From positions 1-43,727 of IMG/VR virus record IMGVR_UViG_3300042876_000853: DNA of 43,727 nt. One strand, given 5' to 3'. This document shows positions 1,937-43,727 of the stretch, one piece after another. The stretch comes from a virus. Position numbers and translations under genes: made by a program. The notes beneath the pieces are model-generated. The model searched no databases. It saw only the letters and a program-made list of their open reading frames with translations, and had not been told where the DNA came from. The stretch's first letter is position 1, and the number at the start of each line of letters is the position of its first letter.

Positions 1937-2629
1937 ATGCCAACAGTGAGCATCATTTTAGTAAGCTTCAATCGCCCCCACATGATTGATCGCGCCATTA
2001 ACAGTGTGCTGGCTCAGACGTTTACCGATTGGGAACTCTGGGTTGCTGACTTTTCATCCAATCAAGAAAAAAAAGATGAGATCGTTAAAAAGATCTCCGC
2101 CTTGGCAGAAAAGGATCCGCGCGTTCATTTGAAAGATTTCCCGTGCCTGACGGAAGAGGAGAATACAAACTCCGCCCCGTACGCTACCAAAATAAACGAA
2201 ACGTTCCCTTTCACCACGGGAAAATATATCGCTTATTTGGTAGATGACGACAAGTGGAAAAATACTCACCTACAACGCTGCCTTGGTGTGTTTGAAAAAG
2301 TTAAAGATGCCTCCGTGGTTTACTCTGGTCAAGTTGTAATGGAAGATATGGGTCAAGGCGAAACCATGTCGCACATGCTTCCGGCAAGTATTATCCGACG
2401 CTGCCTGTTTGCATCCGCCGACCATATTGCAGTAATGCACACGCGAGAAGTTTTTGAGAAAGCCGGAGGCTGGTCAAACGACGAACGCGTTCGCCAGTTT
2501 GGAGATGCCGAGTTTTTTTATCGTATTTGGGAAGCCGGTTTTTTAGCGTACCCCACAAAGTACATAACCACGGTTAAATATTTACACGGCAAAAACTTAA
2601 ACATTAACGGGGGTTGCTATGAAGCCTAA
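1937..2629 (+). CDS. Family 2 (GT-A fold) glycosyltransferase
   Basis: A 230-residue nucleotide-sugar glycosyltransferase. It begins with the classical GT2 strand and turn, VSIILVSFNRPHMIDRAINS, followed by VLAQTFTDWEL. The metal-binding acidic motif is visible as YLVDDDKW (DDD at residues 103-105). A later WSNDERVRQFGDAEFFYRIW segment resembles the ED motif region. No membrane segment is present, so it should act in the cytoplasm. It follows the small gene by 8 bases with GGAG at its start and overlaps the second glycosyltransferase by 11 bases, so the two are probably translated together. A role in decorating virion proteins is inferred from its place inside the structural operon; modification of host surface glycans is the alternative. 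Confidence 0.88.
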   Translation: MPTVSIILVSFNRPHMIDRAINSVLAQTFTDWELWVADFSSNQEKKDEIVKKISALAEKDPRVHLKDFPCLTEEENTNSAPYATKINETFPFTTGKYIAYLVDDDKWKNTHLQRCLGVFEKVKDASVVYSGQVVMEDMGQGETMSHMLPASIIRRCLFASADHIAVMHTREVFEKAGGWSNDERVRQFGDAEFFYRIWEAGFLAYPTKYITTVKYLHGKNLNINGGCYEA

Positions 2630-3749
2630 GGTATTAGCCATTCCAGCAGACGACAAAGCCGTCGGAAAATTGCGCATCATCTCTCCTTTTGGAGAGCTAA
2701 AAAAACAAGGACTTATTGCCCCTGAATCCGAGCTGCTTATGTTGACCACACAAAATTCCAAAGATCTTGCCGCGCTTGGAGCGAAAATGGCTGAATTTGA
2801 TATTGTGTGGTTTCAGATCCGACTCTCCCATCTCTTCTTATGGGAGTTGGTTAACGCTCGCGGAATGAATCCAAAGATCAAATTGATTGTAGAGCTGGAT
2901 GACAATATTTTTGATGTCCAACCTTGGAATCCCTGCGTCGACGCTTTTGCCATCGACCCCATCTTGTATGGCGATACCTTGGTGCGCCCCCGCATGGATG
3001 TGAATTTATCCCGCCGCAGGTTGGCCGAAACAATTTTAGCCGAATCAGATGCCGTGGTGGTAACCACCTCTATCCTCGCGGAGCGGATGTCTCGGTACAA
3101 CAAAAACATCTTCGTCAATCCCAACACCTTGGATTGGTCGTTGTGGGATCAATCCCACGTTGGCCGCCGCCCCCTCGAGCACGTCTACATTGGCTGGCAG
3201 GGAGGCAATACACATTTAATGGATTGGGCCGAATGTGATCCGGCTATCAAGTATGTTCTTCGTAACAATGTGCGGGCCAAATTGGAGCTATTCACGGTTC
3301 AAGATGTGATGACACCTTTTACCAAAAATATGCCAGAAAGTAAACTGATTTTGCACGAGTTTATCAGTTATGATGCGCACCCGTACCGCTCGCAGGTTCT
3401 ACGCCCCGACATTGGGATTTGCCCCCTGCACAAAGATGAGTTTAATATTTGCAAATCGGACTTGAAATTCACCGAGTACGCGGCGTGCAAGGTTCCAGTG
3501 ATTGCATCAAATATCCCCCCATACTCAGAATCGATTATCCACGGGGAAACCGGATTCTTGGTGGATTCGACCCAAGACTGGATTAAGTATTTAAATCGGC
3601 TCATCGAAGATCCCCTGCTTCGTGCTAAGATAGGCGGGGCTGCCTACGAGTGGGCCAAGAAGAATAGACGCTTAGATTTAGCGGCAGCAGAATGGGCCCA
3701 AACCCTGACTGATACGGCGTCACTGCCGACATGGTTTATACCAGAATAG
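2619..3749 (+). CDS. GT-B fold (GT4-like) glycosyltransferase
   Basis: A 376-residue protein with a C-terminal half typical of family 4 glycosyltransferases: a DIGICPL strand, then KFTEYAACKVPVIASNIPPY, then SIIHGETGFLVDST and a helical tail with LIEDPLLRAKIGGAAYEWAK. These match the nucleotide-sugar binding loop and the terminal helix of the GT-B fold. The N-terminal half is more diverged, with a LIVELDDNIFDV motif. It overlaps the upstream GT2 gene by 11 bases, so the pair may act in sequence on one acceptor. It lies between the capsid and connector genes, an unusual place for two sugar transferases. Donor and acceptor cannot be told from the sequence. Confidence 0.85.
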   Translation: MKPKVLAIPADDKAVGKLRIISPFGELKKQGLIAPESELLMLTTQNSKDLAALGAKMAEFDIVWFQIRLSHLFLWELVNARGMNPKIKLIVELDDNIFDVQPWNPCVDAFAIDPILYGDTLVRPRMDVNLSRRRLAETILAESDAVVVTTSILAERMSRYNKNIFVNPNTLDWSLWDQSHVGRRPLEHVYIGWQGGNTHLMDWAECDPAIKYVLRNNVRAKLELFTVQDVMTPFTKNMPESKLILHEFISYDAHPYRSQVLRPDIGICPLHKDEFNICKSDLKFTEYAACKVPVIASNIPPYSESIIHGETGFLVDSTQDWIKYLNRLIEDPLLRAKIGGAAYEWAKKNRRLDLAAAEWAQTLTDTASLPTWFIPE

Positions 3750-13157: not shown

Positions 13158-13553
13158 CTCGTAATGCCCGGCGTCCCACCCCAATGGAATAATTTTACCA
13201 GAGGGTAGAAGCAAGGGTGTGGTCGGTTTAAACACTCCGCCCCACCGAATAGAAATTCCCATTTCTCTTGCGGTAGTGGATACCAAAAGAAAAAGATTAT
13301 AGTAATCAAGCGGTGTGGCCGAGGGGTATGGCTCAATATCAATAGCACGCGATGGACTCGTGTTGTGCTTGCTATTGGGCCATTCCTTCGTGCTATTCCC
13401 TTCTACAAACGCCGCCGTCTGTGCAATCCGATCCCTATATCCGCATATCACAGAAAAATCCTGCTGCTGCTTTTCCAGAACCGCTGTAAATAAGTTTTGC
13501 AAAATAGGGTGACACGTCGCTAATCTCCGCGCCGAACTCTTGCTAAATTTCAT
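13149..13553 (-). CDS. Endolysin, M15 family peptidase (L-Ala-D-Glu / D-Ala-D-Ala type)
   Basis: A 134-residue zinc peptidase that cuts peptidoglycan stem peptides. The M15 signature is complete: SKHNTSPSRAIDIEPY gives the first His (63) and Asp (72), and WDAGHYEL gives the second zinc His (130). The upstream FSVICGYRD segment is the usual strand before the active site. There is no signal peptide or cell-wall binding domain, so it would need a holin. It starts in a TGATATGA overlap with the helicase gene and has GGAGGAG as ribosome site. Unusually, it is the last gene of the replication operon rather than part of the late arm. Confidence 0.9.
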   Translation of the reverse strand: MKFSKSSARRLATCHPILQNLFTAVLEKQQQDFSVICGYRDRIAQTAAFVEGNSTKEWPNSKHNTSPSRAIDIEPYPSATPLDYYNLFLLVSTTAREMGISIRWGGVFKPTTPLLLPSGKIIPLGWDAGHYELA

Positions 13554-14893
13554 ATCATCTCCTCCGAATCTCGAATAATCGGTAAAGGATCTGCCTCATC
13601 TAATTCCGCTTTAAACTCGGTTCGCAACAAAGTCTGAAATTCCTGGGTTTTGACCAACGAGTCTTTTCCTCTACGAACCAATCCGGCCTGCATTAGCCAC
13701 CGAAACTTCTGCTTGATCGCGGGCACCTGCCCAATATCCTGCTCTGTATTGAAGATCGTGAACGTAGTGTGCGTGGACAAATACGACAATAAGGTCCGAT
13801 AGGATTTCCAAGACCGAATCTCCCGCATCACCACATCTTTGCGCCGCGTAAACGCTTCTTCCGTTTGGCGATACGCCCTAACATACTCTTCATACCGTAG
13901 ATCATTTGTCTTAAAAAGATGAACAAGCCAATCGTGAATCCACTGCACATGCTCTGGATACACAACCACCGTTTTAATATCCGCCCCAGGCCCTTTGACC
14001 CTCACCAACGTAGCCAGCGCCGCCGCAAGTCGCGCCAATCTAAGATGCTGGCTGGCTGACACTACAATCGGAAAATCTGTAGCCCATGCCTTAACCAGGG
14101 AACTCCCCAAGGTGTAGCACGCTTGCTCCGCTGCCTCGGTAAACTTAACATCATTTTCTGTTAGCGCCCACGCCACGTTCAAGCCCGCCCTCAATACTTC
14201 CTTGGTAAAAAGGTTCGGCAGGTTGACGTTTTTATACTTTTCGGACAAGCCCTCCCCGGTCATTTTAAATCCCAAGATTAAATCGAACCGGGTCATGTCC
14301 TCTAAAGTTCCAATGAGATATTTAAACAACTGAACCGGAGACGGTCCGTTACTAAAATTGATAATCTCAGTGGGCCCAAACTTACGTGGATTTGCAATCC
14401 ATATTTTCCGACACTTGGCGAGAGCGACAATGGTCCGTATGCCCACGATTTGTGAAATTCCACTTGATCGTACATCGGTCATCCTTTCCAGATCCTCTTG
14501 GGAAATAGATTGCATCTCATCTATGATAACCAGACCACGATTATTATTACTAAAAAACCCAGATTTAGCCACATTACCATTGGCCTGTTTATCAATGCCA
14601 CCAACCAATCCAGCATACGTTGCCTTCCCACGGTTCATACCTCCGGCATTGGTAAAGTGCCACAGCTTTTCGACGGACGTCGATTTTCCACTTTGGCTCT
14701 CCCCAAATAAGCATATGTCCAGCCACCCCCTAATACGATCTCCGCTAAAAATAATCTCCAGGGGGGAGAAGTACGTAAGCAATATAGCGGTAAGCATGTC
14801 ATCTCTCTCGTACACATGCGTCACGTTAAACGTCAGATCATCCACGATCTGTTTCATCTTCTTATCTATCTTATGCAGAAGCTGCGGATTCAT
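13550..14893 (-). CDS. MCM-like AAA+ replicative helicase
   Basis: A 447-residue ATPase. Walker A is GESQSGKST (64-72), Walker B is GLVIIDEMQ (120-128), sensor 1 is IANPR (166-170), and an arginine-finger motif reads TRFDLIL (201-207). The last closely matches the SRFD motif of MCM helicases, and the order of the elements is that of MCM proteins. A helical C-terminal region follows, ending with a winged-helix-like stretch (QKFRWLMQAGLVRRGKDSL). The N-terminal OB/zinc domain of cellular MCM is absent. It overlaps the DNA polymerase gene by 23 bases, with GGAGGAG ahead of the ATG. No DnaB-like helicase is present, so this is probably the replicative helicase. A generic AAA+ loader is the alternative. 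Confidence 0.82.
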   Translation of the reverse strand: MNPQLLHKIDKKMKQIVDDLTFNVTHVYERDDMLTAILLTYFSPLEIIFSGDRIRGWLDICLFGESQSGKSTSVEKLWHFTNAGGMNRGKATYAGLVGGIDKQANGNVAKSGFFSNNNRGLVIIDEMQSISQEDLERMTDVRSSGISQIVGIRTIVALAKCRKIWIANPRKFGPTEIINFSNGPSPVQLFKYLIGTLEDMTRFDLILGFKMTGEGLSEKYKNVNLPNLFTKEVLRAGLNVAWALTENDVKFTEAAEQACYTLGSSLVKAWATDFPIVVSASQHLRLARLAAALATLVRVKGPGADIKTVVVYPEHVQWIHDWLVHLFKTNDLRYEEYVRAYRQTEEAFTRRKDVVMREIRSWKSYRTLLSYLSTHTTFTIFNTEQDIGQVPAIKQKFRWLMQAGLVRRGKDSLVKTQEFQTLLRTEFKAELDEADPLPIIRDSEEMI

Positions 14894-27217: not shown

Positions 27218-28000
27218 TCAATAATTCCACTTATGTTCGCAAGTCTTAGACATGCACGCCGCTATTCTAAAGTTAACCCTTAACGCAATATCTGCGCTTT
27301 CGCATTTTGGACATTTGTACGGAATTAAACTTGTAATCATATCCTTTTTAGGGGTAAGGCTGTAATTGCCCCCCTCTGGCCCTCCCAAATAGGCCGAAAA
27401 AGACGTATTAGAGTAGAATACGCCGTCTTTCTGATGCCAGCCATCACCTATCATCTCGATCTTCCCAAAGCTGTCTAAAATAGCCATCTTACCGGCTCCC
27501 AGGGCCTTAGAAAACTCCCCTGCTTTGTCCGTTATCATCGCTTTTAATTGGTCTATAGATAGCGGAAAAGGTTTTAACTGTTGGATAAGTTGCTGTGTGT
27601 CCGATAATTCGCTCCTAAGATCAAATTTAAGCGAAGAATTGTAAAAACTCAATATTCCATTATGGGCCAAACCATAACGAAGGCCTGACAAATGGCAATG
27701 TTTTAGTAAATCCTCCGTTTCGGCAATTGGGAAGGGGTGGCAATTACCAGGGGATACCGCTCCATGGGTTGCGCGTCTAAAGTGTAATACACACGCCGTT
27801 TCTTTATCAATACGACTTAAATCCAATTGAGCAAGCAACGTTTCAGGGGTCATAAACCCTTTACAGATCGTTACGGTATCCCTTTTTGGGGACTTGCAAT
27901 ACATATACCCGGCCCCGTCTTTATTTGCAGAAAAACAGGCCTTTAATACATCTTTGCTGGGTAAGTCTATTCCCTGTGGTTTTACTACAATTATACACAT
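27218..28000 (-). CDS. Class II glutamine amidotransferase (Ntn hydrolase), copy 1, with zinc ribbon
   Basis: A 260-residue enzyme from the ATG at 28000, which puts the nucleophile Cys at position 2 (MCIIVV), as required after Met removal. Family features are GAGYMY, HFRRATHGAVSPGNCHPFP, GLAHNGILSF and LSDTQQLI. It should release ammonia from glutamine for transfer to an acceptor. The C-terminus adds a zinc ribbon (YKCPKCESAD, then ACMSKTCEHKW). It begins two bases after the amidoligase stop, so the two are coupled. It is clearly related to copy 2 at 29513-30334, on the other side of the amidoligase. No synthase domain is fused to it. Confidence 0.86.
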   Translation of the reverse strand: MCIIVVKPQGIDLPSKDVLKACFSANKDGAGYMYCKSPKRDTVTICKGFMTPETLLAQLDLSRIDKETACVLHFRRATHGAVSPGNCHPFPIAETEDLLKHCHLSGLRYGLAHNGILSFYNSSLKFDLRSELSDTQQLIQQLKPFPLSIDQLKAMITDKAGEFSKALGAGKMAILDSFGKIEMIGDGWHQKDGVFYSNTSFSAYLGGPEGGNYSLTPKKDMITSLIPYKCPKCESADIALRVNFRIAACMSKTCEHKWNY

Positions 28001-28001
28001 A

Positions 28002-29330
28002 TTAAAAAGACCCCTCGTTATCGTCTTCTTCATCCTCGCTATCGTCGTCCTCGTCGTCCTCGTCGTCTTCATCTGTGCTAACATTATCGACGCTAGCGCA
28101 GGAGTTTAAGCTTTCAAAATTTGGTAAGCCGCCAAATGTAACATGTGCAAAGTTCATAAACGCGGCCCACGAGGATTCGATAATGGCCTTTGTATCCCAA
28201 TACTTACACAGATATGCGGCGGCCATTAAAAATTCCAATGTTCCAAGATAGACCATTGGGTCAATAGTGCTCTTAAATGTACGAATTTCTACGGTCGTAC
28301 TATGCTTTAAATTTACAGCGGCATATTTCCCGTGTGTGTTTAGGATTGATTTAATAATGTTTTGTCGGTGGGTTTCGCTATTTATACCGGCCAAAAGCAC
28401 ATCGTTAGAATATCCAGAATACCGTGCAAAATCTGAATTTGAGCGGCGAGAGATTCTATCGATACTTTGTTTATTTACTTCAAAAAAGCAGATAAAATTA
28501 TATAACCCGTTTGGTATAGCGTCAAAAAAGCTACGGTCAAGATGGACATGCAACCCGCAAGAGGAGTATTCGCCTCCGCAAAATTGATTTTCTTTTAACC
28601 AAGGAAAAAGCTCGCTTACTAGTTTGGTGTGGAAATTCATTTTTCCGGGGTGCGTAACAATTTCAAAACCACATGAGACCGACCCGTCATGTTTAATATA
28701 CGCTGTGTTTTCGCCACACAACCGGATTAAATCGGCGGAATGGTAGTACAAAGCTTTGTCAGTATTTTTTTTCGAATTTTCTAACTCTGCACGTTTTTTT
28801 CTTGTGTACTGAACTTCTAATTCAGTTCCTAAAAACAGGCTATTGATTAAAGCCTTGTTTCGTCCTTCACCGTGAAAAATCGGTTTTGGTTTGTAGGAAT
28901 AATCTTCGATTTTATTTACGTGGGCGGCGTGGCAATCTCCGCATAAATTTTCAACCAAATGCTCCGGTTTTTGAACGCATCCGCAATTGTGGCAGCGGGT
29001 ATTTATTGCTTCAAAACAGGCGTGGCACATTTTGGTTTTTTCGTCGGTAACTCCGTTTTTATACCATGAAAATTTTATACCCGGTTTTCCGCACGTTGGG
29101 CACGCTTCAACTTGGCGAGCACATACTTTACAAATTGTACCATTAATCCCTGCAATAGAAACTAAATTTCTAGCAACGTGTTTTTCTCCGCATATATCAC
29201 ACGTTTTAAATTCCCGGTAACAAGTGGTGCATACTCCAAACCCACGCACATTCTTTAGTTGGTGTAATTCGGTTTCCGCTCCGCAACGGGCACAGGGCAC
29301 ACGCTGGATCATATTATTGTCAGTAGGCAT
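28002..29330 (-). CDS. Amidoligase-like enzyme with N-terminal zinc-ribbon array and acidic tail
   Basis: About 442 residues from the ATG at 29330 (AAGGAG upstream); a longer frame overlaps the small gene above. Eight CxxC pairs in the first 130 residues (CARC, CTTC, CDIC, CKVC, CPTC, CHAC, CHNC, CGDC) suggest four zinc sites. The catalytic half shows LGTELEVQ, YIKHDGSVSCGFEIVTHPG, SCGLHVHLDRSFF, FFEVNKQSIDRISRRS and AVNLKHSTTVEIRTFKST. These are the amidoligase (COOH-NH2 ligase) motifs, with a glutamine-synthetase-like fold. The last 25 residues are almost all Asp and Glu. Amidoligases are known to co-occur with class II amidotransferases; here two flank it. Predicted to form an amide or peptide bond on an unknown substrate. 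Confidence 0.82.
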   Translation of the reverse strand: MPTDNNMIQRVPCARCGAETELHQLKNVRGFGVCTTCYREFKTCDICGEKHVARNLVSIAGINGTICKVCARQVEACPTCGKPGIKFSWYKNGVTDEKTKMCHACFEAINTRCHNCGCVQKPEHLVENLCGDCHAAHVNKIEDYSYKPKPIFHGEGRNKALINSLFLGTELEVQYTRKKRAELENSKKNTDKALYYHSADLIRLCGENTAYIKHDGSVSCGFEIVTHPGKMNFHTKLVSELFPWLKENQFCGGEYSSCGLHVHLDRSFFDAIPNGLYNFICFFEVNKQSIDRISRRSNSDFARYSGYSNDVLLAGINSETHRQNIIKSILNTHGKYAAVNLKHSTTVEIRTFKSTIDPMVYLGTLEFLMAAAYLCKYWDTKAIIESSWAAFMNFAHVTFGGLPNFESLNSCASVDNVSTDEDDEDDEDDDSEDEEDDNEGSF

Positions 29331-29502
29331 TTGTATAATCTCCTTCGCTAAAATGTTTAGCATTTTGTTTTTCGTATCTTGTACGCAATTCCAATTTAAT
29401 CGAGGCTCTATTGTACCAATCGTCAATATCTGCCTCGTTAATTGCCACGGCCTCCCGTTGGGATTCACTTAAATTTTCGTCTAAATCCTCAATTACTCCC
29501 AT
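29320..29502 (-). CDS. Small acidic protein before the amidoligase (60 aa)
   Basis: A 60-residue acidic protein with a near-perfect ribosome site (AAAGGAGGATTT before the ATG). It is helical, with an acidic first half (DLDENLSESQREAVAINEAD) and a basic second half (RASIKLELRTRYEKQNAKHF). It overlaps the amidoligase start by 11 bases and follows amidotransferase copy 2 by 10 bases, so it is part of the enzyme cluster. It could be a small substrate or carrier peptide for the amidoligase, which is speculation; no family is recognised. Confidence 0.65.
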   Translation of the reverse strand: MGVIEDLDENLSESQREAVAINEADIDDWYNRASIKLELRTRYEKQNAKHFSEGDYTNAY

Positions 29503-29512
29503 AAATCCTCCT

Positions 29513-30334
29513 TTAAAAAAATATGTTACAATGCGGGCAATACCACAAAGCCTTTTTCATACAAAACAAAGTTGGATTTTTTTGACACGTAGTACAGCAC
29601 ATCGGTGATTGCTTCCAAATGTCCGGGCGCGCAAGTATTTTTTTCTGTAGTTTCTTGGAAACCGCCGTCTTTTTTGGTACATACGGTTTATATTCTCCAT
29701 AGGCCCCTTCCTCTTCCCAATTTTTATAATCAGGGTAGTAAGTGACTTTTGGGCGCGGCAAGTAAGACGTGTTAGAGTATAAGATACCCTCTTGGCTTGT
29801 CCACCCAGCCCCATAGTACCAAATTTGCCCGGTGGAAAGCATAATTGCAACCTTATTCCCTGTCCCCAAGGCCTCGTTAATCAAATTTCTGAAAATCGGT
29901 ACCTCCAAATTTTTGATAATATCAGGATGCGCTAAGTTTCGGGCGATAAAAAGCTGGGTATCTGATAAGTCTTCCTTGGTATCACCCACGCCAAACACTC
30001 CGTTATGTGCAATTGCAGCGGGTAAACCGTCGATCATGGTAGTCTTTAAAAGTTCGGTATTGTTCGAAAACGGGAAAGGGTGGCAGTTGCCAGGGGATTT
30101 AGACCCGGCTGTACCTATGCGAAAATGGTACACAATAGAATCTTTCGCCGTAATATTATCCCTTTGGTATGCCTCGAGAAAAGCTTCCCAAGTCATAAAC
30201 CCTTTTTTGAGGGTTAGGACTTTATTGCGCGTGAACATATACCCGGCCCCGTCTGGATTGTGGTCAAAACAATTATGCAAGGTTTCTACTGATGGAACGG
30301 GCACGTTAAAACTAGAGACAACGATGATACACAT
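29513..30334 (-). CDS. Class II glutamine amidotransferase, copy 2, with zinc ribbon
   Basis: A 273-residue paralogue of the gene at 27218-28000. It begins MCIIVVSS with Cys 2 as nucleophile and keeps DGAGYMF, YHFRIGTAGSKSPGNCHPFP, AIAHNGVFGVG and DLSDTQLF. The C-terminus again carries Cys pairs (CCTTCQKN, FCMKK, WYCPHC). Compared with copy 1 the middle part is diverged and has an insertion rich in Tyr and Lys (PYVPKKTAVSKKLQKKI). The start shares a base with the stop of the last ~130-aa paralogue gene (TAATG). Two similar copies around one ligase suggest different partners or a heteromeric complex. Confidence 0.86.
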   Translation of the reverse strand: MCIIVVSSFNVPVPSVETLHNCFDHNPDGAGYMFTRNKVLTLKKGFMTWEAFLEAYQRDNITAKDSIVYHFRIGTAGSKSPGNCHPFPFSNNTELLKTTMIDGLPAAIAHNGVFGVGDTKEDLSDTQLFIARNLAHPDIIKNLEVPIFRNLINEALGTGNKVAIMLSTGQIWYYGAGWTSQEGILYSNTSYLPRPKVTYYPDYKNWEEEGAYGEYKPYVPKKTAVSKKLQKKILARPDIWKQSPMCCTTCQKNPTLFCMKKALWYCPHCNIFF

Positions 30335-30723
30335 TAAATGTTTTCCTCCCTAAAATTAGATATTGCAAAGTTGACCAATTGCTCGGATATTTCTAAAACC
30401 GTGTCCTCTTTGAAAGAAAAGATGGGATTATTATCTCGTGAAAAATAATTTAAAATCCCTCTTGAGTCTAAATATAAAGGCGCCCCTGGATTTTCTTGAC
30501 TTAAACGCCACGCGGTAAAATGATGCTCGATTCGAGCGGATAAATACCAGTATTTTTTATCCTCAAGGATTAAAGCAAGCATGGTAATATTCCCTTTTTT
30601 TGAGGGCAACTCGTATTTTGGTATATAATATGCGTAGACATCAAATATATCCGAATTTAACCATAGCTTTAATTCATCTTCAAAATAGGGCGTTTTTTGA
30701 GTGCTTATCCAGGTAATTTTCAT
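30334..30723 (-). CDS. Tandem ~130-aa paralogue 1, unknown function
   Basis: A 129-residue protein. The core shows strands (TMLALILEDKKYWYLSARIE) with the family's conserved Trp in KKYWYLSA, and the C-terminus is a helix ending FAISNFREENI. It shares this pattern with the four genes upstream. Short overlaps tie it to both neighbours: it stops in a TAATG with amidotransferase copy 2. Its mixed alpha/beta content and lack of Cys pairs differ from the zinc-rich enzymes. The family is not recognised. Confidence 0.68.
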   Translation of the reverse strand: MKITWISTQKTPYFEDELKLWLNSDIFDVYAYYIPKYELPSKKGNITMLALILEDKKYWYLSARIEHHFTAWRLSQENPGAPLYLDSRGILNYFSRDNNPIFSFKEDTVLEISEQLVNFAISNFREENI

Positions 30724-30724
30724 G

Positions 30725-31111
30725 TTAGCAATTTTCCTTTTGAAAGGTGGTGATTACAAAAACGAGAACGGTTTTATATAAGCCTTGTAGCGCGGTAGTA
30801 TCCGAAAAATATCCTTCGCCTTTGTTTACTATTAACGGCGAAATAGATGTTTCTAAATTTAATATATTTGTTTCTAAAGCATGGCAGTGTATTTGGTTAT
30901 TTGCGGATAAGGTGCATACATACCAAGATGTATCTATACATAAGATATTTAAGCATGTAACTAATACCCCATCACGTAATAAACCATAGGCCCCTACAGC
31001 ATACATATAAAAAACAATATTTCCTTGGGTAATACCACTTGATGCTAGCCAATGATAAAACTTGCTTTCGTATTCTGGATTAGTTCGGTTATTTATCCAT
31101 AGAAAGGTCAT
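30725..31111 (-). CDS. Tandem ~130-aa paralogue 2, unknown function
   Basis: A 128-residue protein opening like its neighbour (MTFLWINNRTNPEYESKFYH compared with MKITWISTQKTPYFEDELKL). It has the conserved strand-Trp motif (ILCIDTSWYVCTLSANN) and the terminal helix ending VITTFQKENC. The end helix resembles that of paralogue 1 in length and pattern. Cysteines are more frequent but not in CxxC pairs. Only one base separates it from the next gene. Role unknown; it belongs to the same operon as the amidoligase cluster. Confidence 0.66.
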   Translation of the reverse strand: MTFLWINNRTNPEYESKFYHWLASSGITQGNIVFYMYAVGAYGLLRDGVLVTCLNILCIDTSWYVCTLSANNQIHCHALETNILNLETSISPLIVNKGEGYFSDTTALQGLYKTVLVFVITTFQKENC

Positions 31112-31112
31112 A

Positions 31113-31511
31113 TTAAAGCATGCTCCTTTTAAAATGGTTCTGGGCGCAGGCGATTAAATCGATCACACATGCGGTAAATTCTGTACTACACGATATAGAC
31201 AATTTATCGCAAGCTCTTCGTAAATTAAAAGGCGTAAAACATAGGGGATAATCAATTAAATATACAGCGGTTCCTAAAAACATATTAGTTGGTGAAGATA
31301 GTGTTCCTAAGTTCCACGTATTACCCATTCTATTATAAAATAAAAATATTGCATTGAGTGATTGCTCCCACAATCCGTGCGTAATATGGAGTGCTATATA
31401 ATCGCAATTCGAATTTAAATCAATAGGACGTGCCCACACGTTAATTTTACGTAAGCAAGACGCATTAACAGACTCGTGCTCAAGATTTTTAGGAACTAAT
31501 TCAATTTCCAT
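31113..31511 (-). CDS. Tandem ~130-aa paralogue 3, unknown function
   Basis: A 132-residue protein from the ATG at 31511, chosen because AGGTG lies ahead of it; a GTG three codons earlier is possible. It has the family strand and Trp (AIFLFYNRMGNTWNLGTLSS) and the C-terminal helix ending CAQNHFKRSML. Four cysteines lie in the last third, with an SISCSTEFTACVIDL segment. The start overlaps the end of paralogue 4 by 11 bases. No known domain. Confidence 0.64.
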   Translation of the reverse strand: MEIELVPKNLEHESVNASCLRKINVWARPIDLNSNCDYIALHITHGLWEQSLNAIFLFYNRMGNTWNLGTLSSPTNMFLGTAVYLIDYPLCFTPFNLRRACDKLSISCSTEFTACVIDLIACAQNHFKRSML

Positions 31512-31980
31512 AGATTTCACCTGTAGCTAGGTTGATATTTATCAGATTTTTAGGGGGGCGGTCGCTAAGGATACGCGCGCGGGATGTTTCTCGTACCAAG
31601 TGATATAATAAATACATGCCTGTATCGTTGGCAATATCCCAAGTGTTTAATCTAGGCACTAATTTTGAAAGGTTTGTTTGTCGGTATTTTTGCGTATCGC
31701 ACAAGGACACGCATGCCCAATATTTAAAAAATTTTAAAACTATGCTATCATTAGTTCTTACTCTGTCGATCCCCCAATTGCCAAGGTTAAAATATAAATA
31801 AAACATTGTGTAGTCGTTCCAAATAACACAGGAAACAAAGCTTTGATCGGTTAAATTAGCTCCCCATATATCAATATGCTGTTGTAAAAATTTAATAGCA
31901 TCATCTTTTGCAAGTTGGTTAATGCCAGGGGGAATTCCGCGCGTAAATTTTTTATTTAAGGGTAGGATGTATACCTGCAT
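31501..31980 (-). CDS. Tandem paralogue 4 (159 aa), the most diverged
   Basis: The longest of the group. It keeps the strand-plus-Trp feature (TMFYLYFNLGNWGIDRV) but has a different C-terminus, without the terminal F-K/R-E motif, ending in INLATGEIYGN. The N-terminal part has KFLQQHIDIWGANLT. It overlaps both neighbours (11 bases to the next start, one base with paralogue 5). Its membership in the family is weaker than for the others. Confidence 0.6.
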   Translation of the reverse strand: MQVYILPLNKKFTRGIPPGINQLAKDDAIKFLQQHIDIWGANLTDQSFVSCVIWNDYTMFYLYFNLGNWGIDRVRTNDSIVLKFFKYWACVSLCDTQKYRQTNLSKLVPRLNTWDIANDTGMYLLYHLVRETSRARILSDRPPKNLININLATGEIYGN

Positions 31981-32381
31981 TATAATATCCCCTCTTTAAA
32001 ATCGTTAGTTACAGCGGTATAAAGTGCCTGTAAAGCGTTTGCTAGATCGGTTTTAGAAATATAATCATATACATACGGTCTGATTAAAATATCCAAATGA
32101 GTTAAGTATAAAAAGGTATTGTGATGAATTCGATATGCGCCATGCTCTCTAAAATTTGGATCTGAAAATCCTAAATACCACATAGAATTAGCTTGAAAGA
32201 GACTGATACAGGCCTGAGTATTGTTATTTTTTTGGAGAGTTGCCCAAAAATAGATTGTGGCATCGTTTAAAGAGCTGTAATTGTTCCTTAAAAATTTACG
32301 CATATGATCTGCATATTCTCTTGCAATAACCCCCCTGTTTAAATCTACCCTTGAGCTTGATCCGACACAGTGTATAGGCAT
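31980..32381 (-). CDS. Tandem ~130-aa paralogue 5, unknown function
   Basis: A 133-residue protein, first transcribed of the five. It has the family motif (ACISLFQANSMWYLGFSD) and the terminal helix ending TAVTNDFKEGIL. The N-terminal part is basic and polar (ADHMRKFLRNNYSS). Its stop shares a base with the start of paralogue 4. It follows a secreted Cys-containing protein by one base, so the five genes and the enzymes form one long transcription unit. Confidence 0.66.
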   Translation of the reverse strand: MPIHCVGSSSRVDLNRGVIAREYADHMRKFLRNNYSSLNDATIYFWATLQKNNNTQACISLFQANSMWYLGFSDPNFREHGAYRIHHNTFLYLTHLDILIRPYVYDYISKTDLANALQALYTAVTNDFKEGIL

Positions 32382-39291: not shown

Positions 39292-39657
39292 ATGAAGCAC
39301 ATTATCTTGGATCTTTACGCATGTAACCCAGAAATTTTAAATTGTATTGAGCAGCTTGAGCCCATCGTCTACAACGCTGCGCACGAGGCAGGGGCCAATA
39401 TCCTGTACTCAAAGTTCTACCAATTTGAGCCGCAGGGTGCCACAGGTTTCTTACTCTTGGCAGAATCACACATCAGCGTGCACACATGGCCCGAGTTCGG
39501 TTTTGCCGCCGTCGACATCTTTACCTGTGGAGACACAGTAGACGCCGAAGCAATCGCCCAAGATATTTGTGACGGACTTCAAAGCAAAAATCGCATCTAT
39601 AATTATGTGGAGCGTTGCCAATATGATTCTAACCCCAACAGCCGAGATTTGGCGTAG
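39292..39657 (+). CDS. speH: S-adenosylmethionine decarboxylase proenzyme (bacterial class 1b, SpeH)
   Basis: A 121-residue proenzyme. LLLAESHISVHTWPEFGFAA has the self-cleavage site between Glu 58 and Ser 59; the new Ser becomes the pyruvoyl cofactor. His 64 and Cys 79 (in DIFTCG) occupy the same spacing from the Ser as in characterised SpeH. It makes decarboxylated SAM, the aminopropyl donor for spermidine. AAGGAG precedes the ATG, and its end overlaps the terminase large-subunit start by 35 bases. No SpeE (spermidine synthase) is present. Its place next to packaging suggests raising host spermidine to compact DNA. Confidence 0.93.
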   Translation: MKHIILDLYACNPEILNCIEQLEPIVYNAAHEAGANILYSKFYQFEPQGATGFLLLAESHISVHTWPEFGFAAVDIFTCGDTVDAEAIAQDICDGLQSKNRIYNYVERCQYDSNPNSRDLA

Positions 39658-43368: not shown

Positions 43369-43727
43369 ATGTCAATTGAACCGAACGTGCCTGCCACTCC
43401 TGCGTCCGAACCTTCGGGTAGCGCAACTACGGCAGCACCAGAGCCCGCACAGCAACCGTCAGCCATACAACAAGAATTATCACGATCTGGTGTTTTAGCC
43501 GCCTTTGGATTAACCCCGACTCCTGATCCAGCTGCCACGGCCCCCGTAGAGGACAAGGCCGTACCTGCCGGACAGACAAAGCCGGACGAAAATCCGAATC
43601 CAACCGAGAAGGAGTTAACCAATCTTAAGTCTGTTTTGGGGCGTCAGTCCAACGAGCTTGGTGAATTGCGCAAGAAAACGGCTGAGTACGAACAGAAGTT
43701 GGCCGAACTGGCGACAAAATCTCAGGC
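43369..43727 (+). CDS. Probable scaffolding protein, 5' part (continues at position 1)
   Basis: The true start of the gene whose 3' part lies at 1-704. GGAGG precedes the ATG at 43369. The first 80 residues are rich in Pro, Ala, Thr and Ser (SIEPNVPATPASEPSGSATT), typical of a flexible scaffold head. Then a heptad helix begins (TEKELTNLKSVLGRQ). The frame runs through the 127-bp overlap unchanged, which proves the circular closure. Confidence 0.78.
   Translation, partial: MSIEPNVPATPASEPSGSATTAAPEPAQQPSAIQQELSRSGVLAAFGLTPTPDPAATAPVEDKAVPAGQTKPDENPNPTEKELTNLKSVLGRQSNELGELRKKTAEYEQKLAELATKSQ
43601..43727. repeat. Right copy of the 127-bp terminal overlap
   Basis: Identical to bases 1-127; see the left copy. 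One copy should be removed to obtain the 43,600-bp circle. Confidence 0.95.

Follow-up and report, generated by a model that had tools for sequence, protein, structure and literature searches.

Class II glutamine amidotransferases (GATases) release ammonia from glutamine, and amidoligases use ATP to form an acyl phosphate that is then converted by ammonia into a carboxamide. Cassettes related to the locus described here are carried by phages RIO-1, phiEco32, LUZ24, tf and UFV-P2, for which a change of the peptidoglycan directed against superinfection has been proposed (PMC5498523, PMC3890496, PMC10580990); this proposal of an altered envelope is already in print for phiEco32-like, RIO-1-like and OM43 phages (PMC5498523, PMC10580990). 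In the literature found on phage amidoligase-GATase pairs, which are a widespread phage module, no experiment identifies the product.

The DNA analysed is a single record, IMG/VR virus record IMGVR_UViG_3300042876_000853, positions 1 to 43,727; the whole of these 43,727 bases is referred to as the window. Positions 1-127 are identical to 43601-43727, and because of these 127-base terminal repeats the record is probably a complete genome. Four genes are found on the minus strand between 30334 and 27218, in the order GATase B, a 60-aa acidic ORF, an amidoligase of the Amidoligase_2 family and GATase A; their features are listed in Table 1. Each is preceded by a Shine-Dalgarno-like sequence, each overlaps or nearly touches its neighbour, and translational coupling extends across the cluster. 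The tight spacing, the Shine-Dalgarno-like sites and the fact that three of the four genes belong to recognisable enzyme families argue against a chance set of ORFs. No structured RNA was found by using Rfam, PADLOC gave no match to known defence families, and promoter and terminator scans returned no more than in shuffled sequence.

Table 1. Features of the amidoligase-GATase cluster in the window
Feature	Position	Strand	Basis
GATase B (273 aa; class II glutamine amidotransferase), begins with Met-Cys, Cys hairpin at the C-terminus	29513..30334	-	catalytic residues, AlphaFold model
Possible zinc hairpin CTTC...CPHC, C-terminus of GATase B	29528..29596	-	sequence
Acidic ORF (60 aa, net charge -7), in translational coupling with the ligase gene	29320..29502	-	Shine-Dalgarno, overlap
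Amidoligase (Amidoligase_2, predicted glutamine-synthetase fold), 442 aa	28002..29330	-	PF12224, phrog_16683, core residues, fold
N-terminal stretch of the ligase, eight CxxC forming four predicted zinc ribbons	28932..29294	-	direct count
Amidoligase catalytic core, residues 168-375	28206..28829	-	invariant residues
Polyacidic C-terminal tail of the ligase	28005..28079	-	net -18, last 25 residues
GATase A (260 aa; class II glutamine amidotransferase), next gene after the ligase, the canonical partner position	27218..28000	-	catalytic residues, phrog_25883
Possible zinc hairpin CPKC...CMSKTC, C-terminus of GATase A	27239..27313	-	sequence

Two gene starts had to be chosen among alternatives. 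The ligase can be read as a 488-aa ORF beginning at a GTG at 29468, which overstates the gene; the ATG at 29330, within the end of the 60-aa ORF, is preferred. GATase A begins at the ATG at 28000, one base past the ligase stop codon (28004-28002), with an N-terminal Met-Cys, and a longer frame reaching 28084 is a mere upstream extension.

Three features lie elsewhere in the genome. Two glycosyltransferase genes (families 2 and 1) are located on the plus strand at 1937-3749, between the genes of the major capsid protein and of a SU10-type adaptor; this position suggests glycosylation of a virion protein. An S-adenosylmethionine decarboxylase, an enzyme of polyamine synthesis, is encoded on the plus strand at 39292-39657 (Pfam, 7.5e-35); the next gene is that of the terminase large subunit. 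A phage helicase on the minus strand (13550-14893) matches the MCM P-loop domain at 1.1e-9 and also phrog_18685; MCM-type helicases are unusual in phages of such size.

The ligase matches the Pfam family Amidoligase_2 (PF12224) above the curated cut-off (1.3e-7, 32.2 bits for a cut-off of 22), as well as phrog_16683 (2.5e-34). In an alignment of 44 sequences 13 core positions are invariant, and all of them are present in the ligase: G168, E170, E172, D215, E223, P228, G259, H261, H263, N340, T346, E348 and R350, a set that includes a G-x-E-x-E motif, the D of DGS, an H-x-H motif and T-x-E-x-R. The AlphaFold model (pLDDT 84.5) was compared with solved structures by using Foldseek. A YbdK-type protein, predicted to be a glutathione synthase, is the nearest solved fold; PafA, Dop, glutamine synthetase and gamma-glutamylmethylamide synthetase are matched as well, the E-values being 7e-6 to 1e-3 at a probability of 1.00; TM-scores are only about 0.3, and the matches are consistent in fold family. 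On family match, residues and model, the protein is predicted to be an amidoligase with the glutamine synthetase/YbdK/PafA fold.

Ahead of the core, exactly eight CxxC motifs, at residues 13, 34, 44, 67, 77, 102, 113 and 130, make up four pairs; of 191 related ligases, about half likewise have at least four such motifs ahead of the core. Profile matches of these N-terminal ribbons to zinc domains that bind protein or nucleic acid, LIM and PHD among them, are weak and not significant (E 0.014-1). The last 25 residues carry a net charge of -18, the runner-up among the 191 relatives having -6; no other ligase ORF in this comparison has a tail of such acidity.

Both GATases keep Cys2, the Arg/Thr pair, the Asn-Gly motif and the conserved Asp; in GATase B these are C2, R72, T75, N111-G112 and D125. 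Since the class II glutaminase residue set is intact in both, neither appears by its sequence to be a dead copy. The Ntn-hydrolase glutaminase fold was modelled for GATase B only (pLDDT 81.7), the model matching the glutaminase domain of GlmS (1xff) with an E-value of 5e-7, while for GATase A the fold is assigned by alignment and by a PDB profile: the profile of 42 GATase relatives matched GFAT/GlmS at 7e-7 and PurF at 1e-5. GATase A also matches phrog_25883 (2.2e-7). Neither protein reaches the Pfam cut-offs for GATase_4 or GATase_6, GATase A scoring 16.8 bits with GATase_4 for a cut-off of 23 and GATase B giving no match. Both are placed in a distant subfamily of class II, membership resting on the residues and the fold. 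The two proteins are about 40% identical and are mutual best BLAST hits; this level of identity rules out a recent tandem duplication. Their C-terminal Cys motifs are CPKC...CMSKTC in GATase A and CTTC...CPHC in GATase B, and pairs resembling the latter are present in about 40% of related GATases.

The anatomy given in a preliminary description of the locus, made from the letters alone, is borne out by these results, and its interpretation in part. It had proposed an amidoligase with four zinc sites and a polyacidic tail, a 60-aa acidic protein and two paralogous class II amidotransferases, all of which are recovered. It had named the lack of a glutamine-synthetase-type fold, or the loss of catalytic residues, as what would speak against the enzyme; the fold was found and the residues are kept. 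A zinc ribbon had also been placed at the C-terminus of each GATase: the Cys pairs are indeed there, and zinc binding by them is plausible, in a hairpin that the model of GATase B predicts with low confidence (pLDDT about 45-50).

The distribution of the two enzymes was established by several searches. An alignment-based scan of IMG/VR with the ligase identified at least 571 relatives among 599 candidates, 80 loci being kept, and a scan with the GATases gave 60 loci, in all of which (60/60) a ligase lies in the fetched flank. Ligase and GATase are both present in 146 of the 151 related loci, on the same strand in 145 of these, and in 120 loci the GATase follows immediately after the ligase. 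GATase A thus occupies the same position as the GATase of most related loci. In bacterial assemblies, mostly of gut Clostridia, a ligase is found at 24 of 27 GATase loci, the remaining three being at or near contig ends. Cultured phages with the pair include Methylophilales MEP401/402, the Marvin-group mycobacteriophages and Stenotrophomonas phage StenR_269. The ligase and the GATase are therefore a near-obligate, widespread phage unit. Apart from the core genes of phages and an ATP-grasp gene in certain clades, no gene family recurs near the pair; no wall-specific gene accompanies it across clades.

Some related loci depart from the simple pair. Two amidoligases with one GATase, the reverse doubling, are present at L014, L023, L034/L187, L053, L068 and L137. 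At L067 (2443-4023) ligase and GATase are joined in frame, the GATase catalytic Met-Cys being missing; this fusion is not used as functional evidence, as the join removes the N-terminal Met-Cys and is probably a deletion or an assembly chimera. Gene 116 of mycobacteriophage Beelzebub/Marvin (L008, 6562-7923; MK061407.1, 62057-63418) is annotated as a glutamine amidotransferase and aligns as a zinc-ribbon amidoligase, with Pfam below cut-off; the GATase there is gene 117 only.

No conserved partner was found among the other genes of the locus. The 60-aa ORF has a strong Shine-Dalgarno sequence and its TGA overlaps the ligase start; it has no homologue at related loci, nor in Pfam/NCBIfam, and a putative role as partner or substrate is unsupported. 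Directly upstream of GATase B, and apparently in the same operon, are five consecutive minus-strand ORFs of 128-159 aa (30334-32381). At least two of them, 30334-30723 and 30725-31111, are paralogues (BLAST, 6e-5), the others showing at most marginal similarity; none of the five has homologues at related loci or a Pfam family. Both the 60-aa ORF and the upstream ORFs were rejected as conserved partners, having no homologues at other loci.

The recurrent linkage of ligase and GATase had been anticipated in the preliminary description, and it holds; recurrence with two amidotransferases does not, one ligase with two GATases having been seen in this phage only. No such arrangement occurs among the other fetched IMG/VR or bacterial loci. 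When the whole records of 42 phages were searched, a second GATase was found in only one (L119), where it is accompanied by a second ligase of its own, so that the whole pair is doubled there and the ratio is not 2:1. StenR_269 is the only other phage with two GATases outside doubled pairs; they belong to different subfamilies and to a larger cassette. Pattern scans of IMG/VR made with one protein at a time (ligase, GATase A, major capsid protein) gave no relatives, nor did the first 24 kb match any phage by megablast, so that the collections offer no close relative that would show if the double GATase is conserved.

The following reaction is proposed. The class II GATase would hydrolyse glutamine with its N-terminal Cys and hand the ammonia to the amidoligase, where ATP would activate the carboxylate of an acceptor as an acyl phosphate, leading to a carboxamide. 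The ligase may use its zinc ribbons and acidic tail to help bind the acceptor or the other subunits. GATase A would be the standard partner of the ligase, and GATase B a diverged paralogue providing a second glutaminase for the same ligase, to which it is assigned because no second ligase was found. We infer the transfer of ammonia, the amide product and the sharing of the ligase by GATase B. Glutamine-dependent amide chemistry in general, also expected in the preliminary description, is likely, as judged from the two families and their near-obligate pairing.

No dedicated substrate gene recurs near the pair across clades, and the acceptor is therefore probably made by the host. The most likely candidate would be a carboxyl of the host peptidoglycan stem peptide or of its precursor, the envelope being altered during infection, with a host or phage protein as the nearest alternative. 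Acceptor and benefit to the phage are both guesses, and the complete statement, of a phage glutamine-dependent amide synthetase that acts on the wall, is offered tentatively, as possible rather than probable. Wall peptides take the lead because L. casei strains that lose a wall-amidating glutamine amidotransferase become resistant to phage J1 (PMC3885529), and because MurT-GatD carries out an analogous ligase-plus-glutaminase reaction (PMC6736417); the interpretation of similar cassettes as peptidoglycan modification against superinfection points the same way. Several observations weigh against the wall. The pair is also found in mycobacteriophages, and mycobacteria amidate their stem peptides themselves, so that extra amidation would do little there. 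The pair has no wall-specific companion gene across clades, and published wall cassettes include genes for an ATP-grasp and a cyclotransferase that the window lacks. The zinc ribbons, moreover, have no stated role there and point as readily to a protein target.

With the same chemistry, carboxyls of a host or phage protein could be amidated or joined to an amine, the zinc ribbons recognising the target. This is somewhat unlikely, in spite of some attractive features: the Pup ligase PafA and Dop, found by the fold search, act on protein carboxyls, tandem CxxC ribbons with non-significant matches of the LIM/PHD type are shared by about half of the related ligases, and a protein target would explain the presence of pairs in phages whose hosts' walls differ greatly. 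PafA-type matches are, however, expected of any superfamily member, and no conserved candidate target gene lies near the pair.

The product could also be soluble, an amide metabolite of gamma-glutamyl or nucleotide-linked type that aids the phage or counters defence. The YbdK-type predicted glutathione synthase as closest solved fold, together with the match to gamma-glutamylmethylamide synthetase, fits a small-molecule acceptor, and so do the ATP-grasp and gamma-glutamyl cyclotransferase genes of some related cassettes; a role in nitrogen metabolism has been suggested for another phage (PMC10945688). Yet neither the window nor most of the pairs have the cyclotransferase and ATP-grasp genes, and a metabolic enzyme has no obvious need for four zinc ribbons, which leaves this reading unlikely. 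That GATase B stands outside the synthetase, having been acquired separately, serving the host or another ligase, or being the remnant of a lost second ligase-GATase pair, is improbable. In favour of it, the free tree groups GATase B with 25 other GATases, GATase A being outside (support 95/90), and loss of one ligase from two complete pairs, as carried by one related phage, would give the 2:1 ratio. Against it, a tree constrained to unite A and B is not rejected (p-AU 0.55), the two are each other's best hits, nearly every relative lies near an amidoligase, and GATase B, its catalytic set intact, shows coupling with both the 60-aa ORF and the ligase.

If the acceptor is the wall, as in the preferred reading, the pair would be a general phage means to shut out rivals. 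A three-subunit amide synthetase may also be envisaged: the two diverged glutaminases would assemble as a hetero-oligomer on a single ligase, or would supply ammonia for two different acceptors, the polyacidic tail being a charged docking arm; this is unlikely. No 2:1 architecture is known to have been described for amidoligases, and the doubled form is suited by nature to show if the ligase has a fixed glutaminase subunit or can exchange it.

Among described systems, Methylophilales phages MEP401/MEP402 (PMC10580990) have, as here, an amidoligase directly followed by a class II GATase on the same strand, both being tblastn homologues; they differ in having one GATase and no polyacidic tail, and identity is about 24% for the ligase and 29% for GATase A. 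Genes 116/117 of the Marvin-group mycobacteriophages likewise encode a zinc-ribbon amidoligase and then a GATase with C-terminal Cys pairs, but one GATase only. The StenR_269 and LUZ24/phiEco32/RIO-1 cassettes (PMC5498523, PMC3890496) combine an Amidoligase_2 with class II GATases, two in StenR_269; there, however, besides GATases of different subfamilies, the cassette includes genes for an ATP-grasp, a gamma-glutamyl cyclotransferase and two more ligase-like proteins, of which no counterpart was found in the window. The peptidoglycan amidation complex MurT-GatD (PMC6736417) resembles the proposed enzyme in its ATP-dependent ligase and separate glutaminase, encoded in one operon, and in its carboxamide product; MurT has a Mur-ligase fold and GatD is not an Ntn-type class II glutaminase, so that the analogy is functional only. 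By analogy, the locus would work like the RIO-1/phiEco32 peptidoglycan modification cassette, whose amidoligase and GATase are present in the window; it is not filed as a full member because no ATP-grasp or gamma-glutamyl cyclotransferase was matched in the window (Pfam scan of the main ORFs, StenR_269 proteins and PF13772). The second ligase of that cassette, COOH-NH2_lig (PF14395), had no match in the window in a search whose control likewise matched nowhere. While the ligase-GATase unit itself is already known from these phages, what is unusual here is the 2:1 ratio of GATase to ligase, together with the acidic tail of the ligase.
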